Part shown: one piece after another, positions 2,124 to 10,106 of the stretch
Layout of the letters: each line of letters opens with the position of its first letter
How positions within the stretch are numbered: the first letter of the stretch is position 1
Source of the DNA: Nocardioides sp.
Lineage (GTDB): Bacteria > Actinomycetota > Actinomycetes > Propionibacteriales > Nocardioidaceae
Direction of reading: 5' to 3'
DNA: 11,284 bases
NCBI GenBank assembly: GCA_021731205.1
Contig: JAKFXV010000111.1
Span: forward strand, 1 to 11,284
Made by a program: the position numbers and the translations under genes
The notes under the pieces: generated by a model
Told to the model about the DNA's origin: nothing
Seen by the model: only the letters and a program-made list of their open reading frames with translations
The model's database searches: none

Positions 2124-4121
2124 TCAGGGGCCGAGGTACATCACGCGGTTGTCGCTGCTGGTGGACGCCGTGTTCGTGTTGCCTGCCTCGTCAGTCGCGA
2201 CACCGGCAGGCAAGGTGGCGACGATCGTGCCCGTGCTCGTCATCCCGCTCACGCTGACCGTGTAGGTCCGGGGGCCACCGGAAAGGGCCGCCGTCTTGCC
2301 GGTCGCCGTGCCGCCGAGGGTGACGTCTGCGGCCGTGAGCCCGAAGGTGTCCTCGCTGAACCGCACCCGGAAGTTGACCGGCGAGGTCATGGCCGGATCC
2401 GCCTGGCCCGGTGCTTGGTTAACGGTCACGGTCGGTCGGGTCGTGTCGATCGTGATGGTCGTGTTGGCGGAGTAGGAACCGACGTTGCCGGCCAGGTCGG
2501 TGCCCCGAGCGTTCAGGTTCCGGTTGCCGGCCACAAGGGTGACGGTGAAGGTGTAGACCCCGGCCCCGTCGGCGGTCCCGGTGGCGATCACCGTCGTGCC
2601 ATTGCGCAGGTTCACCGTGGCGCCGGCCTCCGTGGTGCCGGTGACGGTGACCGTCGTGAGCATGGTGATCTGGTCGGTCGAGCTGATGCCGGTGTCGCTG
2701 GCGGCGGTCAAGACCGGCGACGAGGTCGTCGGGGCCACGGTGTCGATCACCGCCGTGGACATCACGCTCGGGGCACTGACGTTGCCCGCGACATCGGTCG
2801 CAGTGGCCGTGATCGGATGGGTGCCGTTGCTGAGCGTGGGGCTGGTCACGGAGTAGTTGCCCGAGACGATCGCGGCGCTCACCAGGATCGAGGTCCCGTT
2901 GTCGAGCAGGGTGATGATGGAGTTGGCCTCGGTGGTGCCGGTGAAGATGGGCAGAGTCACGCTGGTGATGCCGTCGGTGTTGGACGCACCCGAGTCGGTT
3001 GCAGTGGTCATCGTCGGGCGAGAGGGTGCGGCCGGAGCCGTGGCGTCGACCGTGATCGTGACCGAACCCGACATGCCCGAGTTGTTGCCCGCGAGGTCGG
3101 TGGCCCGAGCGGTGATCGTGTGGGCGCCGTCCGTGAGCGTGGTCGACGTGACGAAGTAGATACCACCGGTCGCAACGCCGGACCCGCGTGGAACCGCGCC
3201 CTCGAAGAGGGTCACCGTGGCCGTCGACTCCGCCGTCCCGGTGAACACCGGCGTGCTCAGCATGGTGATCCGGTCGGTGGCCGATCGGCCGGTGTCGCTG
3301 CCCGCGGCCAGCGCGGGAGTCGACGGTGTTGCCGGTGCGGTGGTGTCGATCACGATCGTGGAGTTCGCGGAGTAGGGGGAAGTGAGGTTCGCGGCATCCG
3401 TGGCGGTTGCCCTGATGCTGTGCGTAGTGGCGGTCAGGGTGGGGCTGGGGATCGTGTACGTCCCGCCGGCCGCAACTCCACTGGCGATCAAGGTCGCTCC
3501 GGCGTAGATCCGCACCGTGCTGCCTGCCTCGGCCGTGCCGGTGAAGACGGGAGCGGTGATGTTGGTGATGCCGTCGGAGTTGGAGGCTCCGGCGTCGGTG
3601 GCCGCCGTCAAGCGTGGCGCGGACGGCGCGGCCGGGGGAGTGGAGTCGTTGATGACCGTGACCACCGGGCTGAGCGCGCCGATCTCGGTCCAGGACTGGT
3701 ACACCGCGGTCACGCGGTAGCGGTACTGACCGTCGGGAACGCCCTCGTCGTTGCAACCGGTGCCGGTGACCAGACTGGCCGCCGAACTCGCGCAGGCGGG
3801 GAACTCCGCCAGGTCGCCGGTGCGGATCCGCACCACGAAGTACCCCTGGACCGGGATGCCCAAACCCAAGGTGGCGGCGGTCCACGACACCGGAACCGTG
3901 CCGCTGTCGGTGGTACTGGTGCCCTGCACGTTGCCGGGGGCGGTCATCACGTCGGTGGTGCCTCCCGCCAGCCCGGCGCCCAGGGCCGTGAAGAAGGCGG
4001 CGGCCGACGGTCCTCCCACGACGAGGGCGAACAGACCCAGGGCGGCCGTCCCCACACGCGCGCGCAACGTCCAGACGGCGCGCTGGCCACCTCGGGCTCG
4101 CGCTGCGCGTTCCGAAAGCAT
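2124..4121 (-). CDS. Secreted multi-domain Ig-like/FnIII repeat protein with SipW-type N-terminus
   Basis: The 665-residue product is probably exported and may act as an adhesin or matrix protein. ATG 4121 is chosen because AGGAG (4130-4134) lies 8 bases upstream; the frame stays open further upstream, but that sequence looks non-coding. Residues 21-53 are a signal sequence. It ends in AAAFFTALGAGLAGG, resembling the AAF-aromatic-T-x-G-x-G region of the two TasA-like neighbours. Residues about 56-158 resemble a fibronectin III domain, with two cysteines (C110, C123). Four Ig-like domains of about 100 residues follow (161-260, 262-361, 363-461, 463-561), with TGTxE, TATD.AGN and TITID motifs (Big_13-like, family named from memory). 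A different Ig-like domain ends the protein (562-665, NQAPGQADP..SPVNF). There is no LPXTG motif or C-terminal membrane segment, so anchoring is unexplained. It lies 109 bases downstream of the TasA-like gene and is probably in its operon. Confidence 0.88.
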   Translation of the reverse strand: MLSERAARARGGQRAVWTLRARVGTAALGLFALVVGGPSAAAFFTALGAGLAGGTTDVMTAPGNVQGTSTTDSGTVPVSWTAATLGLGIPVQGYFVVRIRTGDLAEFPACASSAASLVTGTGCNDEGVPDGQYRYRVTAVYQSWTEIGALSPVVTVINDSTPPAAPSAPRLTAATDAGASNSDGITNITAPVFTGTAEAGSTVRIYAGATLIASGVAAGGTYTIPSPTLTATTHSIRATATDAANLTSPYSANSTIVIDTTAPATPSTPALAAGSDTGRSATDRITMLSTPVFTGTAESTATVTLFEGAVPRGSGVATGGIYFVTSTTLTDGAHTITARATDLAGNNSGMSGSVTITVDATAPAAPSRPTMTTATDSGASNTDGITSVTLPIFTGTTEANSIITLLDNGTSILVSAAIVSGNYSVTSPTLSNGTHPITATATDVAGNVSAPSVMSTAVIDTVAPTTSSPVLTAASDTGISSTDQITMLTTVTVTGTTEAGATVNLRNGTTVIATGTADGAGVYTFTVTLVAGNRNLNARGTDLAGNVGSYSANTTITIDTTRPTVTVNQAPGQADPAMTSPVNFRVRFSEDTFGLTAADVTLGGTATGKTAALSGGPRTYTVSVSGMTSTGTIVATLPAGVATDEAGNTNTASTSSDNRVMYLGP
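2439..3641 (-). repeat. Four tandem Ig-domain repeats, about 300 bp each
   Basis: The coding sequence contains four consecutive units of roughly 100 codons. They are recognisable by recurring P-x-PS-P, SDTG/TDxIT, VFTGTxE, TATDxAGN and ITID segments. Units 1 and 3 share ASN(S/T)DGIT, and units 2 and 4 share S(A/S)TD(R/Q)ITML. This A-B-A-B pattern suggests duplication of a two-domain block. The repeats are diverged, so this is protein-level repetition and not an exact DNA repeat. Confidence 0.8.
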
Positions 4122-4198
4122 GTCGGAGGCTCCTGCGGGGTGGGGGATGGAGCAGTCGTGCTGGGTAGTGACTAGCGAGAGCTGATCCGCCGACGCGA

Positions 4199-4212
4199 CG
4201 CCGAGTTCGGCG
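4199..4212 (-). other. Intercistronic hairpin between TasA-like gene and Ig-repeat gene
   Basis: CGCCG (4199-4203) and CGGCG (4208-4212) form a 5-bp GC stem with a 4-base loop. It lies 18 bases past the stop of the TasA-like gene, within the 109-base gap before the Ig-repeat gene. No T-tract follows. It could act as a weak attenuator or RNA-stability element giving more of the small protein than of the large one. Chance is possible at this GC content. Confidence 0.3.
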
Positions 4213-4230
4213 CGCCAGCGGGTCGGTGGA

Positions 4231-4683
4231 TCAGGTGCTCGTGTACGCGATGTCGACCGTGGCGCCCTTGCAGGCGTTCTGGTTCGCACCCGACTTGTTG
4301 TTGAACGCGATCGTCAGACCCGACCAGGCGCCAACGCCGGCGCCCGAAGCAACCTCGGCGTTGACCACCGCGGTGCCGGCGATCGTGTAGTCGGTCGCGT
4401 CGCAACCGGCCTGGTTGGTGCCCGTGACGGTGGCGGTGACCGAGCCCACGTAGACCGGGCCGGCATTCGGGTTGTCGAAGTTGCCAGACAGCGACTGAGC
4501 AGGCGTGCCGGGGGCCAAACCAGTCACCGAACTCGTCTGGTTCACGGTGACGGCCGTTACCGTCCCGGTGGTAACCTGACCGGTACCGGAACCGTTGATG
4601 GTCCAGTACCCAAAGGCGGCTCCGGACAGAGCCAACAAACTTGCGAGAGCCAGTGCCATGGCCCTCGTTGTCATTCTTCGCAT
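4231..4683 (-). CDS. TasA/SipW-type small secreted protein, copy 1
   Basis: This 150-residue protein has an N-terminal signal sequence (MRRMTTRAMALALASLLALSG) followed by AAFGYWT..GSGTGQ. That arrangement is typical of actinobacterial proteins with a SipW-dependent signal peptide, related to TasA and camelysin. The mature part is rich in Thr, Val, Gly and Asn, lacks Lys-rich or catalytic motifs, and looks like a beta-sandwich. Two cysteines (in QAGCDATDY and NQNACKG) could form a disulphide. TasA relatives build extracellular fibres, so a matrix role is inferred and not shown. The start at ATG 4683 has AGGAG 7 bases upstream. It is divergent from the TetR gene, shares its control region, and precedes the Ig-repeat gene. 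A paralogue lies at 5620-6072. No signal peptidase SipW is in the window. Confidence 0.85.
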   Translation of the reverse strand: MRRMTTRAMALALASLLALSGAAFGYWTINGSGTGQVTTGTVTAVTVNQTSSVTGLAPGTPAQSLSGNFDNPNAGPVYVGSVTATVTGTNQAGCDATDYTIAGTAVVNAEVASGAGVGAWSGLTIAFNNKSGANQNACKGATVDIAYTST

Positions 4684-5619: not shown

Positions 5620-6072
5620 TCAGTTGCTGGTGTAGTCGATGTCGACGATCGCGCCCTGACAGGCGTTCTGGTTGACGCCTGGCAGGTTGTTGAATGCCAT
5701 CGTCAGACCGCTCCACGAGCCGACGCCGCTCCCGGCAGGGACGTGGGCGTTAACGGTCGCGGACCCAGCGATCACATAGTCGTCCTCGTCACAGCCCGGC
5801 TGATCGGTTCCGGCGACCGTCGCGGTCACCGAGGTCACGTAGACCGGCCCGGAGTTGGGATTGGTGAAGTTGCCAGACAGGGTCTGGGCGGGAACTCCGG
5901 GGGCCAGCGCACTCAAGGTGCTGGTCTGGTTGACCGTGATGGCACTCACGGTCCCGGGGTTCGCCTGCCCAGAACCGGAGCCGGTAGCGGTCCAGTGGGC
6001 GAAGGCAGCGCCCGACAGGGCTAGCCCGCAGGTCAGCGTCATCACGCCGCATCGGGCGGCCGTTCCACTCAT
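5620..6072 (-). CDS. TasA/SipW-type small secreted protein, copy 2
   Basis: A 150-residue paralogue of the protein at 4231-4683, aligning without gaps. By hand count about 86 of 126 residues are identical after the signal sequence. Shared blocks include VNQTS, APAQ-like LSGNF, NPN.GPVYV, SVTATV and the cysteine-containing segments QPGCDEDDY and NQNACQG. The signal region (GVMTLTCGLALSGAAFAHWT) has the same AAF-aromatic-x-T pattern. ATG 6072 has AGGAG (6081-6085) 8 bases upstream. Unlike copy 1, it is followed not by a complete Ig gene but by a short Ig-domain remnant, and it has no palindrome like the TetR operator upstream. It may be regulated differently, or be expressed with the operon upstream. 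Extracellular structural function is inferred from the family. Confidence 0.85.
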   Translation of the reverse strand: MSGTAARCGVMTLTCGLALSGAAFAHWTATGSGSGQANPGTVSAITVNQTSTLSALAPGVPAQTLSGNFTNPNSGPVYVTSVTATVAGTDQPGCDEDDYVIAGSATVNAHVPAGSGVGSWSGLTMAFNNLPGVNQNACQGAIVDIDYTSN

Positions 6073-6264: not shown

Positions 6265-6669
6265 CTAGTGTCGAATTCGCGACATGACCCAATGATTGAC
6301 GTTCTCGGCGCGCTCATACGAGAGCCCGTCCAGGGCCAGGTGCGCCATCGCCAAGCCACGCCCGGTCTCGGCCATGACATCGGGCATGACACCGGAGGAG
6401 AGGTCGCCTTCGTAGGCCTCGCCGTTGTCCGACAGGCGACCGAGCAGTTGCTCCGGGCGAACTTCCAGGTGGAACTGCCAGGTCACCTCCCCGGTGGGCC
6501 TACCGTGCTCGACGACGTTGCCGGCGATCTCGATCACGGCTGTTTCGAACAGCATCAGGTCCGCCGGGGAAAGATCGGGGTGCTCGCCAGCTGCTCGCTG
6601 CAGGAGTTCGTGCAGCAGGTTCAGGCTCTCGGGCTGTGCTTCGGCGCAGACGTTGTAGTCACCAGTCAC
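6265..6669 (-). CDS. RsbW-like ATP-binding protein (serine kinase/anti-sigma-type switch protein)
   Basis: The 134-residue product is a GHKL ATPase of the RsbW/SpoIIAB class, which phosphorylates a STAS partner and sequesters a target when the partner is phosphorylated. The N box reads ETAVIEIAGNVVEHG (E47 and N51 are the expected catalytic and Mg-binding residues), the G1 box is SDNGEAY (D81, G83), and the G2 box is ETGRGLAMAH (G103-G105). Length fits the family. The start is GTG 6669, inside the end of the STAS gene (11-base overlap), indicating translational coupling rather than an independent ribosome site. It is the last gene of the four-gene operon. No sigma factor is adjacent, so its target is not evident; candidates are a distant sigma factor or the glycosyltransferase itself. 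Confidence 0.88.
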   Translation of the reverse strand: MTGDYNVCAEAQPESLNLLHELLQRAAGEHPDLSPADLMLFETAVIEIAGNVVEHGRPTGEVTWQFHLEVRPEQLLGRLSDNGEAYEGDLSSGVMPDVMAETGRGLAMAHLALDGLSYERAENVNHWVMSRIRH

Positions 6670-6991
6670 GTGTGGCGTCCGCGGGCGTCGAGTGAGACTT
6701 GAGCACTCGATCGAGGTTGGTGAGCTGCAGCACCGTCGTGACCTGCTCGGGGGCGCCGGCGATCCTCAGGTCGCCTCCGGCCTGCCTGGTCACTTTCAAT
6801 CCGCCGATCAGGGCCCCGAGGCCTGAGGAGTCCACGAAGGACGTGTCGGTGAGATCGACGACGATCCGGGCGTGTCCATCGGCCACGGTCTGGTCCACCA
6901 TCGCCCGAAGCTTGGGCGCAGCCACCATGTTCAATCGTCCGCTGCAGCTCAAGATGGCTGCGTTGCCCACGATCGTCTTCTCGAGTTCCAT
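6659..6991 (-). CDS. STAS-domain anti-anti-sigma factor (RsbV/SpoIIAA-like)
   Basis: The 110-residue single STAS domain carries ARIVVDLTDTSFVDSSGLGALIGG. In it, DSSGLG (residues 54-59) contains the serine phosphorylated by the partner kinase (S55 or S56 by family analogy). In its unphosphorylated form such a protein binds the RsbW-like kinase and frees that kinase's target. The start at ATG 6991 shares one base with the stop of the glycosyltransferase gene (TGATG), and AAGGAG (7003-7008) lies 11 bases upstream. The downstream kinase gene overlaps its 3' end. With the phosphatase at the head of the operon this makes a complete partner switch: phosphatase, STAS switch protein and kinase. Confidence 0.93.
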   Translation of the reverse strand: MELEKTIVGNAAILSCSGRLNMVAAPKLRAMVDQTVADGHARIVVDLTDTSFVDSSGLGALIGGLKVTRQAGGDLRIAGAPEQVTTVLQLTNLDRVLKSHSTPADATRDW

Positions 6992-8943
6992 CAGCGGGTC
7001 AGCTCCTTCGTAGTCTCGGGCGCCTGAAACAGCGCCGCACGGTAGATCACGCTCAGCACGAGCAGGTCATAGGTCACCCAGAGCACGTTGACCCAGGTCG
7101 CGAGCGCATCGTCGGCCTGCCCGGTGTAGAGGCGGGTCAGCCCGATCACCACCGCCATGACGAGTACGACACTCACCGTGACCTGTGGCCAGATCAGACG
7201 CCAAGGAATGCCCCCACCCGGCTGCCTCGTTTTCGGGGTCGCCGCGAAGCCGAGGGGCCGGTGGAAGTAGACGTTGGCGACCCCGTTCACGCAGGCGCGG
7301 ATCCAGATCGGGAACAGCGCCAGTCCGTATTGATGCCCACGCCAACTCGTCACGCCGTATCCGACGTAGCAGAACAGGGCTTGAGTGAGCAGGAAGTAGG
7401 GCACGAAGGCGAGCAGGAACATCAGGTCGAAGGACCGGACGGGCAGGATCCCCGTGCAGAGGAAGACCACCGGAGCGGCGAACAGCGCCAAGGCTGCGAA
7501 GCCGGCGAGGTAGCTCCACATCGTCGCGAAGTACATCAGCCGCTGGCCCACCGACAGCCCACGATTCGTCAACGGGTTCTCTCGGAGCAGCACTTGGAGT
7601 GCTCCCTGAGCCCAGCGCAGGCGCTGCTGCAGCATCGTCCCCAGATCCTCGGGAGCGACTCCGTGCGCCAGGATCTCGTGGTGGTAGACCGACTTCCAGC
7701 CCATGGCATGCATGGACATGCTCGTGGCCAGGTCCTCGGTCACCGACATAGTGGCCAGCGGCATCATCGGCTGCGCCTCTTCCGTGCGATCGACGTCGAT
7801 CGCACGGACCAGGGCCCGCACCGACTCCAGCGCACCCAGTGGCGATAGATCTCGCTGAGCCAGGTGGCCGATCGCGACGTCGTCGATGATGACTCCGCCC
7901 ATTTCTTCGTCGGTTCCCACCGCAAGGGCTGCCAGCTCGGCTAGGTCGGCACGCATCGCAACAACGTCCCGGTCGACGATCTGCCGGCTCGCGGCGTCCA
8001 CCTGCTGCTGGAACGCATAGGTCACATCGCCGACCGGGTGCCCCGCGTCCAGCTGCCGCATCGCATCGTGAGCCGCCCGCCGCACGGAGGTCAGCGCGGC
8101 GACGACCTCGGGTCCTTGGTCCTTGGCCTCGGTGGCGGTTCGAGTGAGCATCCGGCTGCCCAGACGCAAGGCCTGGCGGACAGCTGACTCGACTTCGCGG
8201 ACGTAGCCGACGACGCCGAGCTGCATCAGGGCTTCTCGGCGCAGCACGGTGTTTGACCCACAGAAGAAGGCAGCGTTCCAGCCGTCCTTCCCTTGTTGGA
8301 TCGGTCCGTAGAACAGGGGCGCCTGGCTGCCGAGGGGGTCGGACTCGGTGACGTTCACGAACCATTGAGGGGTCTGGACCATCCCCACCTGAGGGTCGGT
8401 GAACCAGCCGAGGGTCTTGTCCAGGATCGATGGATGGGGAATCTGGTCGGCGTCCAGGATCAGCATGTATTCGCCCTCGGTGAAGAACAGGGCGTTGTTG
8501 AGATTGCCTGCTTTGGCGTGACGTGGCCGATCTGCCCAGTCGGAGTCCCGCGTGAGGTAACCGACACCGAGGCTTTGGGCTGCTTGCCGCAACTGCGGTC
8601 GTTCGCCGTCGTCGAGGATCCACGTCCGATGCGGGTAGCGGATCTTCACGGCCGCTCGAGCGGTGGCGCTGACCATCCACACCGGCTCGTTGTAGCTGGT
8701 GATGAAGACGTCGACCGTGGCACCGCTGGGTGGGGCTGGTGCAGGTCCGCGCTGCTTGATCCGCCACATTGCCAGGCCGAACAGATAGGCGTCGATCAGG
8801 AAGAAGGTTTCGGCGAGCACCAACGGCACCGCGATCCACCAGTTGTCCCACGCCACGGAGAAACCCCAGCGCCAGCCGAGGTAGATCGTCCCCGCCAGAA
8901 CAGTGAGCACCACGAGCACTCGGATCGATAGCCGGTGCATCAT
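6991..8943 (-). CDS. Membrane GT2 glycosyltransferase, cellulose-synthase-like, without PilZ domain
   Basis: This 650-residue inner-membrane processive glycosyltransferase probably polymerises and exports an exopolysaccharide from a nucleotide sugar; the sugar is unknown. Two N-terminal helices (about 5-24 and 34-60) precede a cytoplasmic GT2 domain with ILDDGE (D111/D112), LDADQIPH (D164/D166), TPQWF, FFCGSNTVLRREAL, TED (402-404) and QRLRW (440-444), the D,D,D,QxxRW set of cellulose and hyaluronan synthases. About five more helices follow (467-500, 505-532, 538-560, 583-606, 613-638). It ends soon after the last helix and lacks the c-di-GMP-binding PilZ domain of BcsA. About 140-150 extra, partly helical residues (244-398) sit between DxD and TED. 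It starts at ATG 8943 overlapping the phosphatase stop (ATGA); ATG 8940 is an alternative. No BcsB-like partner is in the window. Confidence 0.92.
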   Translation of the reverse strand: MMHRLSIRVLVVLTVLAGTIYLGWRWGFSVAWDNWWIAVPLVLAETFFLIDAYLFGLAMWRIKQRGPAPAPPSGATVDVFITSYNEPVWMVSATARAAVKIRYPHRTWILDDGERPQLRQAAQSLGVGYLTRDSDWADRPRHAKAGNLNNALFFTEGEYMLILDADQIPHPSILDKTLGWFTDPQVGMVQTPQWFVNVTESDPLGSQAPLFYGPIQQGKDGWNAAFFCGSNTVLRREALMQLGVVGYVREVESAVRQALRLGSRMLTRTATEAKDQGPEVVAALTSVRRAAHDAMRQLDAGHPVGDVTYAFQQQVDAASRQIVDRDVVAMRADLAELAALAVGTDEEMGGVIIDDVAIGHLAQRDLSPLGALESVRALVRAIDVDRTEEAQPMMPLATMSVTEDLATSMSMHAMGWKSVYHHEILAHGVAPEDLGTMLQQRLRWAQGALQVLLRENPLTNRGLSVGQRLMYFATMWSYLAGFAALALFAAPVVFLCTGILPVRSFDLMFLLAFVPYFLLTQALFCYVGYGVTSWRGHQYGLALFPIWIRACVNGVANVYFHRPLGFAATPKTRQPGGGIPWRLIWPQVTVSVVLVMAVVIGLTRLYTGQADDALATWVNVLWVTYDLLVLSVIYRAALFQAPETTKELTR

Positions 8944-10106
8944 GCCCCCGCGCGGCGTACGACGACGGCGGTGATGTCATCCGCCGGCGGATAAGCCGAA
9001 CCCAGGGTCGCGATCTGGTCGACCATCTCCCAAGCGTCTCGGCTGTACTGACTGAGCTCGGCTGCAGCCTTGGCGGCTGTTTTGGGGTCAGGGAAGTAGT
9101 CCAAGATCCCGTCGCTCACCACGATCAGGGTTTCACCCGGATCGAGGCGGTCGTAGCTCGGTTCCCAGCGGTCCCCGACCACTGCCCCCAGGGGTAGCCC
9201 ATCGGAGGCGAGCTGTCGGATCTGCCCCTCGTCGGTGATGATCAGTGCGAGGCCGTGCCCCGCGTCGATGTATTCGAGGTCGCCTGTCTCCGGATCCAGG
9301 CGACTGGTGAACATCGTCACGAACGTCGAGGTGCCGTTGAGGTCGTCCTCCATCGTGGCTGCCGTGCGGCTCAGCGACTCCTGGAGATTGTTGAACCGGG
9401 AGGCCCCTCGGACCACCGAACGCACCGCGGCCGCGATTAACGCCGCACCGATCCCCTTGCCCATGACGTCGGCCACCACGATGTGGAACTGGTCACCGCG
9501 CAACTGCCAGTCGAAGAAGTCGCCGCCCAGATCACGGGCGGGCAGGCAGCGACCCGCGACGTCGTATCCCGGAATCTCGGGCGCCCGGTTGGGCATCAGC
9601 CTGCGCTGGATCTCGCGGGCATGCACGAGGTCGGCATCCGACGCCAGCTCCTGCTCGACCCAGTCCGCAAGGTCCCGCAGGATGGACACCTCGCGAGCAG
9701 CCAGCTCGCGGGGCACGGTGTCGAGGATGCACAGGGACCCGACCCGTTGCCCCCCTGGCGCTGCCAGCGGCTGGCCGGCGTAGAAGCGCAGGTGCGGTGG
9801 TCCGACAACGAACGGATGAGAGCCGAAGTTCTCGTCGGCGCTCAGGTCGGGGATGACCAAGGCCGCCGGGGTTTGGATCGTGCGAGAGCAGAAGGTCTTG
9901 CCGCGTGGCAGGTCGTTGCGCGACATCCCGACCACGGCCTTGTGGAACGCTCGCGATTCGTCGATGAGCTGGACCGACACCATCGGCACACCGAAGATCA
10001 GCTGGGCCATCCGCACGATGCGGTCGAACCGCTCTTCGGGGGGAGTGTCGAGCAGGCGCAGCCGGTGCAGCGCGGTCAAGCGCTCCTGTTCACCGATGCT
10101 GGTCAC
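8940..10106 (-). CDS. GAF domain plus SpoIIE/PP2C serine phosphatase (RsbU-like)
   Basis: The 388-residue protein has an N-terminal GAF sensor domain (about 22-153; FGVPMVSVQLID, FCSRTIQ, FYAGQPLAAPGG, VGSLCILD). A short linker (EIQRRLMP) leads to a PP2C-type phosphatase domain (about 170-385). Metal-binding motifs are present: LGGDFFDW (D196), VADVMGKGIGAAL (D213), a DAGHG segment, VSDGILD (D332) and ADDITAVVV (D376/D377), so it should be active. Its expected substrate is the phosphorylated STAS protein two genes downstream, and the GAF domain would sense an unknown signal. There is no membrane segment, so it is cytoplasmic. The start is GTG 10106 with AGGAG (10112-10116) 5 bases upstream. 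It is first in the operon; its stop overlaps the glycosyltransferase start by 4 bases. Confidence 0.93.
   Translation of the reverse strand: MTSIGEQERLTALHRLRLLDTPPEERFDRIVRMAQLIFGVPMVSVQLIDESRAFHKAVVGMSRNDLPRGKTFCSRTIQTPAALVIPDLSADENFGSHPFVVGPPHLRFYAGQPLAAPGGQRVGSLCILDTVPRELAAREVSILRDLADWVEQELASDADLVHAREIQRRLMPNRAPEIPGYDVAGRCLPARDLGGDFFDWQLRGDQFHIVVADVMGKGIGAALIAAAVRSVVRGASRFNNLQESLSRTAATMEDDLNGTSTFVTMFTSRLDPETGDLEYIDAGHGLALIITDEGQIRQLASDGLPLGAVVGDRWEPSYDRLDPGETLIVVSDGILDYFPDPKTAAKAAAELSQYSRDAWEMVDQIATLGSAYPPADDITAVVVRRAGA

Follow-up and report, generated by a model that had tools for sequence, protein, structure and literature searches.

The window, as we call the whole stretch of DNA analysed (11,284 nucleotides from a Nocardioides sp. 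contig), holds on its minus strand genes for a PP2C phosphatase, a membrane GT2 synthase, a STAS protein and an RsbW-like kinase, in this order of transcription. Successive genes overlap by 4, 1 and 11 bases in the list of open reading frames, and these coordinates bear out the order and overlaps given in the first-pass annotation. The genes and the features within them are as follows.

8940-10106, minus strand: PP2C phosphatase with GAF and SpoIIE domains (ORF list, Pfam)
6991-8943, minus strand: BcsA-like membrane GT2 synthase, 650 amino acids, without PilZ (ORF list, Pfam, NCBIfam, PDB profile match)
7756-8214, minus strand: catalytic-domain insert of the synthase, residues 244-396, between FFCGSN and TED (alignment with BcsA, relatives)
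7732-7740, minus strand: TED motif of the synthase, immediately after the insert on its C-terminal side (found in 268 of 268 synthases)
7231-7248, minus strand: gating-loop-type motif FAATPK of the synthase (matching pattern in 230 of 268 synthases)
6659-6991, minus strand: STAS protein, 110 amino acids, with an anti-sigma-factor-antagonist fold (ORF list, Pfam, NCBIfam)
6824-6826, minus strand: codon of STAS Ser56 in DSSG, the predicted phosphorylation site (motif position)
6265-6669, minus strand: RsbW/SpoIIAB-like serine kinase, 134 amino acids (ORF list, Pfam)
6517-6531, minus strand: N-box of the kinase, Glu47 to Asn51 (both residues present in all 248 paired kinases)

Switch proteins, synthase and insert

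The PP2C protein of the window joins a sensor domain (GAF, 2.2e-13) to a phosphatase domain (SpoIIE, 8.1e-34; both from Pfam) and is presumed to be the input that dephosphorylates the STAS protein. It contains the motifs GGDFFD, DVMGKG, SDG and DDIT, the patterns of which are present in 171 to 223 of 237 relatives, some of these sequences being incomplete. The input domain varies while the remainder of the operon is constant: Pfam places GAF on the PP2C protein of the window and on those of L048 and L099, and a receiver domain takes its place in three micrococcal relatives (L055, L062 and L095). The STAS domain (2.1e-18 in Pfam) carries the motif DSSGLG, kept in 245 of 252 STAS relatives, and we take its Ser56 to be the equivalent of SpoIIAA Ser58. 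The STAS family profile matches TM1442 and SpoIIAA in the PDB, which are anti-sigma-factor antagonists. The kinase is recognized as HATPase_c_2 (6.8e-9 in Pfam). Its G2 box has GRG at residues 103-105, found in 99-100% of 248 relatives, and a loose pattern for the G1 box occurs in 195 of 254. The catalytic motifs of phosphatase and kinase and the STAS serine, all of which had been reported at the first reading, are present in the window proteins.

The synthase matches Cellulose_synt (9e-22) and GT2 families in Pfam and contains the motifs LDDG, LDAD, TED and QQRLRW. Its family profile finds BcsA in the PDB with an E value of 2.1e-89 and aligns with it across the catalytic and membrane parts. 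TED is presumably the catalytic base as in BcsA, and FAATPK is assumed to be the FxVTxK-type gating loop of that enzyme. The synthase scores 321.8 bits against TIGR03030, the BcsA equivalog model, the cut-off of which is 699.1. The absence of a PilZ control domain, also claimed earlier, was confirmed, in that Pfam detects none in the window synthase and the relatives extend a median of 12 and a maximum of 56 residues beyond the last modelled position. Because PilZ is absent and the score falls far below the BcsA equivalog cut-off, the product is not assigned as cellulose.

Between FFCGSN and TED, two motifs that are nearly contiguous in E. coli BcsA in the profile alignment, the synthase has some 150 extra residues as an insert. 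From one motif to the other the distance is 162-178 in 108 of the 109 loci measured and 107 in L116, perhaps through an earlier TED. The inserts of the window and of L131 matched no Pfam family, and a comparison of the insert with the PDB gave no credible chain. Judged from helix propensity, which is high in the part covering residues 246-360, the insert is probably largely helical. Among four parts of the synthase this one shows the lowest helix cost (0.445, compared with 0.48 from TED to QRLRW, 0.604 for insert residues 361-396 and 0.646 for the core), and no TM-like stretch was found in it. The motifs on either side are part of the catalytic domain, and by analogy with BcsA the insert should therefore be cytoplasmic. 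Its conserved points include Y247, T308, D326, D333-L334 and S367-P368-L369. We propose the insert as the docking site for the switch.

Conservation of the operon and linkage of insert to switch

A scan of named prokaryote genomes gave at least 548 confirmed relatives of the synthase, and the best 80 were examined; these are the closest loci and not a random sample. STAS, kinase and PP2C genes lie within 3 kb of the synthase in 76 of these 80 closest loci of at least 548, spread over 28 named genera and 15 families, and all four genes stand on one strand in the window's order in 68 of the 80. The other eight of these 76 loci have PP2C after the kinase, or have kinase and PP2C on the opposite strand. 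The four exceptions are L032 (contig end), L090 and L101, neither of which has STAS and kinase adjacent, and L110, where STAS and kinase lie about 3 kb off on the opposite strand. With 76 of the 80 grouped within 3 kb and 68 in the window's order, the four-gene grouping is not due to chance. The conservation across Actinobacteria that the first-pass annotation had made a test of its reading is thus found, the window's order being kept in 68 of the 80 closest loci.

With samples from five groups the set grew to 269 loci at which the synthase is full-length and bears the insert, some genomes appearing twice (e.g. L004/L033, L032/L112 and L110/L225). STAS is directly downstream of the synthase on the same strand in 251 of the 269. 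From the GT2 stop to the start of the STAS model the median gap is 27 nt (quartiles 24-30, n = 248), from which it follows that the two genes abut and that the window's tight junction is the rule. The operon is real and widespread in Actinobacteria. The synthase itself is patchy: it was found in 22 of 394 genomes of the class, the window's own included (E of 1e-220 or better), in 60 of 294 genomes of the window's own family, and in 52 of 349, 46 of 245 and 26 of 251 genomes of the families f39, f6 and f7. In L132 (G395:C53), from a 1.6 Mb genome, the operon looks decayed, with the synthase in pieces and a remnant of PP2C.

In the class sample, STAS and kinase adjoin all 20 insert-bearing loci with enough contig, a count that leaves aside L112 (contig end) and the decayed-looking L132. 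Neither STAS nor kinase was found near any of 40 insert-less loci (37 genomes), which are a subset of the insert-less loci in that sample; at one of them, L147, there is about 4 kb off a weak match to the PP2C model over the GAF part. Since each of the three models (STAS, kinase and PP2C) was built from 76 to 78 family members, a remote STAS beside insert-less synthases might be overlooked, although STAS proteins at 30-84 bits were detected elsewhere. A tree computed with the insert columns left out requires two changes of the insert. After removal of six rows (the five longest-branch loci) it needs one, with weak branch support (SH-aLRT 43). A single origin of the insert fits these trees, and its link with the switch may accordingly be one event. 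A PilZ-less synthase with a catalytic-domain insert of some 150 residues, tied to a partner switch, appears to be new as far as the open-access literature covered goes.

Family f39 was analysed at genome level, at E thresholds of 1e-150 (synthase) and 1e-26 (STAS). Cassette-type STAS occurs in 52 of 52 synthase genomes and in 21 of 297 others (Fisher p 3e-45, kinship ignored). Fourteen genomes were examined because they contain a synthase copy without STAS directly downstream, and all of them have a cassette-type STAS, the best match being at least 129 bits in each. In six of the 14 this STAS sits in a PP2C-STAS-kinase cassette (L353-L356, L358 and L445); the one in G947 (L447) is on the strand opposite to the synthase, some 2 kb away. 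G785 and G1470 have STAS next to a second synthase copy; in G937, the genome of L110, STAS likewise stands beside a second copy, and the other copy has a STAS-kinase pair at a distance of about 3 kb. Genus g173 contributes five genomes (L217, L267, L269, L273 and L277) in which a kinase gene comes directly after the synthase and STAS is missing there, the gap between models being 75-89 nt; a separate STAS-kinase pair lies elsewhere, so that these genomes have two such kinases. Since the 14 include the five g173 genomes and four of g122, they represent fewer than 14 independent events. Two or three cassette-type STAS proteins occur in 17 of the 52 synthase genomes of f39, and a STAS elsewhere in the genome may hence be a paralogue with another task.

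Beside the STAS of the 21 f39 genomes that have the cassette type and no synthase match, the kinase adjoins in 20 and PP2C too in 19, and no synthase was found in the 5-10 kb stretches around it. Such a switch points to other targets or a general role. Several of these cassettes (L410-L430, e.g. L412, L423 and L430) were seen by eye to lie between a PcrA-like helicase gene and sucC. In six genomes (L431-L435 and L438) a synthase-linked cassette coexists with a separate one, and a FastTree tree of 278 STAS+kinase rows implies at least 16 changes of linkage. The dependence is one-sided, of the synthase on the switch and not the reverse, and the pair is not strictly exclusive.

Genes around the operon were examined with regard to the polymer. 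A GH26-like gene occurs near it in up to 17 of the 80 closest loci, a count in which the matches of L048, L051 and L052 lie in long reverse frames that perhaps do not belong to the gene itself and in which L077 and L078 are one strain. Of ten proteins, drawn from six loci and compared with Pfam, nine matched GH26 (eight at scores above the cut-off), and two of these nine have an OpgC acyltransferase domain as well. GH26 gave no Pfam match among the window proteins scanned. The GH26 and OpgC neighbours hint at a beta-mannan- or beta-glucan-like extracellular polymer, perhaps acylated. An OpgC-type acyltransferase joined to a weak GH26-like region stands beside the synthase in L090 (429-2924) and L110 (4287-6761), the GH26 score of the latter being just under the cut-off.

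Downstream of the operon in the window, two genes on the minus strand (4231-4683 and 5620-6072) encode secreted-looking proteins of 150 residues with 65% mutual identity. They have no Pfam or NCBIfam match above the cut-off, and their N-termini resemble SipW-dependent (TasA-like) signals by eye. A 721-residue protein (2124-4289, minus strand) has Big_13 Ig-like/Ca2+-tandemer repeats and is possibly a matrix adhesin beside the polysaccharide operon. A tRNA-Ala gene (ggc) is at 2022-2096 on the plus strand. Outside the window's own genome, homologues of the 150-residue proteins were found at one place among the loci examined (L440, identical with L363), and the Big_13 protein had no tblastn match among these loci. 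Matrix-like proteins were rejected as general operon neighbours because homologues occur at that one place only. At L440 (G1470:C4:8000-18000; Arthrobacter rhizosphaerae, the genome of L101) a lone cassette-type STAS of 114 bits adjoins a 69% homologue of the window's 150-residue protein and a large OmpL47/Ca-tandemer-repeat protein, an instance in another genus of this switch family close to such matrix-like proteins.

Target of the switch

Partner switches of this kind usually control gene expression, commonly by releasing a sigma factor. The earlier observation that none is encoded beside the operon holds for nine of the window's proteins, all compared with Pfam and NCBIfam, a set to which the three genes at 358-1983 do not belong; the window's TetR protein matches sigma models with scores far below the cut-off. 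In the genome's own assembly, which is 84% complete, two region-3 sigma proteins were found, one of RpoD type that is cut by a contig end and one of WhiG/FliA type, and no factor of SigB/F/G type was found in this incomplete assembly.

Mean-field DCA was used to look for coevolution in 248 paired operons, at a Neff of 123. The positive control, STAS with kinase, was hardly enriched (1.06-fold in the top 20 and 1.38-fold in the top 500), and the ratios for insert with STAS (0.83 and 0.96) and insert with kinase (0.53 and 0.83) therefore carry no reading. The highest ratios, in the same analysis with its failed control, belonged to the part of the synthase before the insert, with STAS (2.44) and with kinase (1.88; both top 20). 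Natural fusions of GT2 and STAS were sought among 812 fusion-size candidates. Three proteins matched at E <= 0.001, all with GT2 domains, and they were rejected as frameshift artefacts because the synthase sequence turns into unrelated letters ahead of the STAS start.

The shared operon suggests that the switch acts on the synthase itself. The explanation that we consider best, and to which we give an even chance, is that the four genes form one output module in which the switch controls the synthase directly through docking on the insert. The GAF-PP2C phosphatase would sense a signal and remove the phosphate from Ser56 of the STAS protein; the RsbW-like kinase would restore it. The effector would be the membrane synthase of the same operon, its insert docking one of the switch proteins. 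We favour a form in which unphosphorylated STAS binds the insert and turns the synthase on, by analogy with SiaC and the stalk of SiaD; alternatively, the kinase might bind and block the synthase until STAS draws it off. Either way, a direct phospho-switch would stand in for control by c-di-GMP and PilZ. The broader proposal, that processive polysaccharide synthases gained a docking insert and with it a direct, c-di-GMP-independent gating of a BcsA-like enzyme by a phospho-switch in much of Actinobacteria, we put slightly below an even chance. The first-pass reading that the switch controls the synthase is partly supported by these results.

A classical switch would have the kinase sequester a sigma factor encoded elsewhere, with the synthase as a regulon gene that happens to share the operon. 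All three switch proteins have the canonical motifs, the STAS profile matches anti-sigma-factor antagonists in the PDB, the RpoD and WhiG-type factors exist in the window's own genome, and the switch must have another target in the 21 of 297 genomes where STAS occurs without the synthase. This account nevertheless leaves unexplained why the insert is confined to switch-linked synthases and why the GT2 and STAS genes abut, and no sigma factor was found among the window proteins scanned and none of SigB/F/G type in the 84%-complete assembly; we consider it unlikely, if a serious candidate. The one-way dependence, with STAS in 52 of 52 synthase genomes but also in 21 of 297 others, speaks for a general module with several clients, of which the synthase would be an optional one recruited in Actinobacteria. 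The 16 or more changes of linkage and the Arthrobacter STAS that adjoins secreted matrix-like proteins at L440 are in keeping with this, whereas the six genomes with linked and separate cassettes suggest specialised paralogues rather than one shared switch, and we regard such a module as rather improbable.

The switch might also act through a diguanylate cyclase in trans, after the manner of BgrUWVR of Sinorhizobium or HsbA-HsbD of Pseudomonas, the synthase answering c-di-GMP at a non-PilZ site. There are precedents in known switches that reach beta-glucan synthesis through c-di-GMP, as stated in an excerpt of PMC7647112. Against it, the synthase has no PilZ and no cyclase is encoded among the nine window proteins scanned; we judge this route very unlikely. 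Whether the switch acts on the synthase is open to direct test, the switch and its candidate target being genetically tied in 28 named genera and the insert being a discrete part that can be deleted or swapped.

Comparison with known systems

To our knowledge, the on/off control of actinobacterial exopolysaccharide synthesis is poorly understood. By its gene content the operon is a partner-switching system with a synthase in the effector place, and we found no earlier description of it in the open-access literature. In the portions of that literature covered, no GT2-STAS-RsbW-PP2C operon is described, and subscription papers might contain one; the survey of EPS operons in PMC7112194 has no occurrence of 'STAS'.

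The switch proteins resemble RsbU-RsbV-RsbW in having a sensor-PP2C, a STAS protein with the DSSG serine and the boxes of a GHKL kinase, and differ in that no cognate sigma factor was found alongside, among the nine window proteins scanned. The synthase shares with BcsA the GT2 motifs, the membrane architecture and a gating-loop-type motif, but it lacks PilZ, has a large insert and scores far below the equivalog cut-off. A glycosyltransferase with a STAS domain of its own, all4160 of Anabaena, is mentioned in an excerpt of PMC8256260.

The operon bears on the question of what STAS proteins that are not tied to sigma factors, such as SypA, have as targets. SypA of Vibrio fischeri is a STAS protein that is active unphosphorylated and controls a polysaccharide biofilm; the passages on it in PMC4517449 report post-transcriptional control and no evidence of anti-sigma antagonism, whereas the review PMC8256260, in its corresponding passage, words SypA as starting transcription. 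As these partial accounts have it, the system differs from the one described here in that SypE is kinase and phosphatase in one protein and the locus has 18 genes. BgrUWVR of Sinorhizobium meliloti, as cited in portions of PMC7647112 and PMC8457831, is a switch that turns on mixed-linkage beta-glucan synthesis. It is alike in coupling a partner switch to beta-glucan synthesis and differs, by the same limited accounts, in acting through the cyclase BgrR and c-di-GMP.

The closest parallel in proposed mode of action is SiaABCD of Pseudomonas aeruginosa, in which, likewise, a single operon encodes a PP2C phosphatase, a kinase, a STAS-like protein and the enzyme that is the effector. According to excerpts of PMC8457831 and PMC7647112, SiaC attaches to the helical stalk of SiaD when unphosphorylated and is kept from doing so by phosphorylation, so that there, too, a STAS-like protein acts on an enzyme rather than on a sigma factor. 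The differences, within the scope of those excerpts, are that the effector of SiaABCD is a diguanylate cyclase, a GT2 synthase occupying this slot in our operon, and that its phosphorylation is on threonine and its biofilm control runs through c-di-GMP. By this analogy the operon may work like SiaABCD, yet it is not a member of the SiaABCD type.
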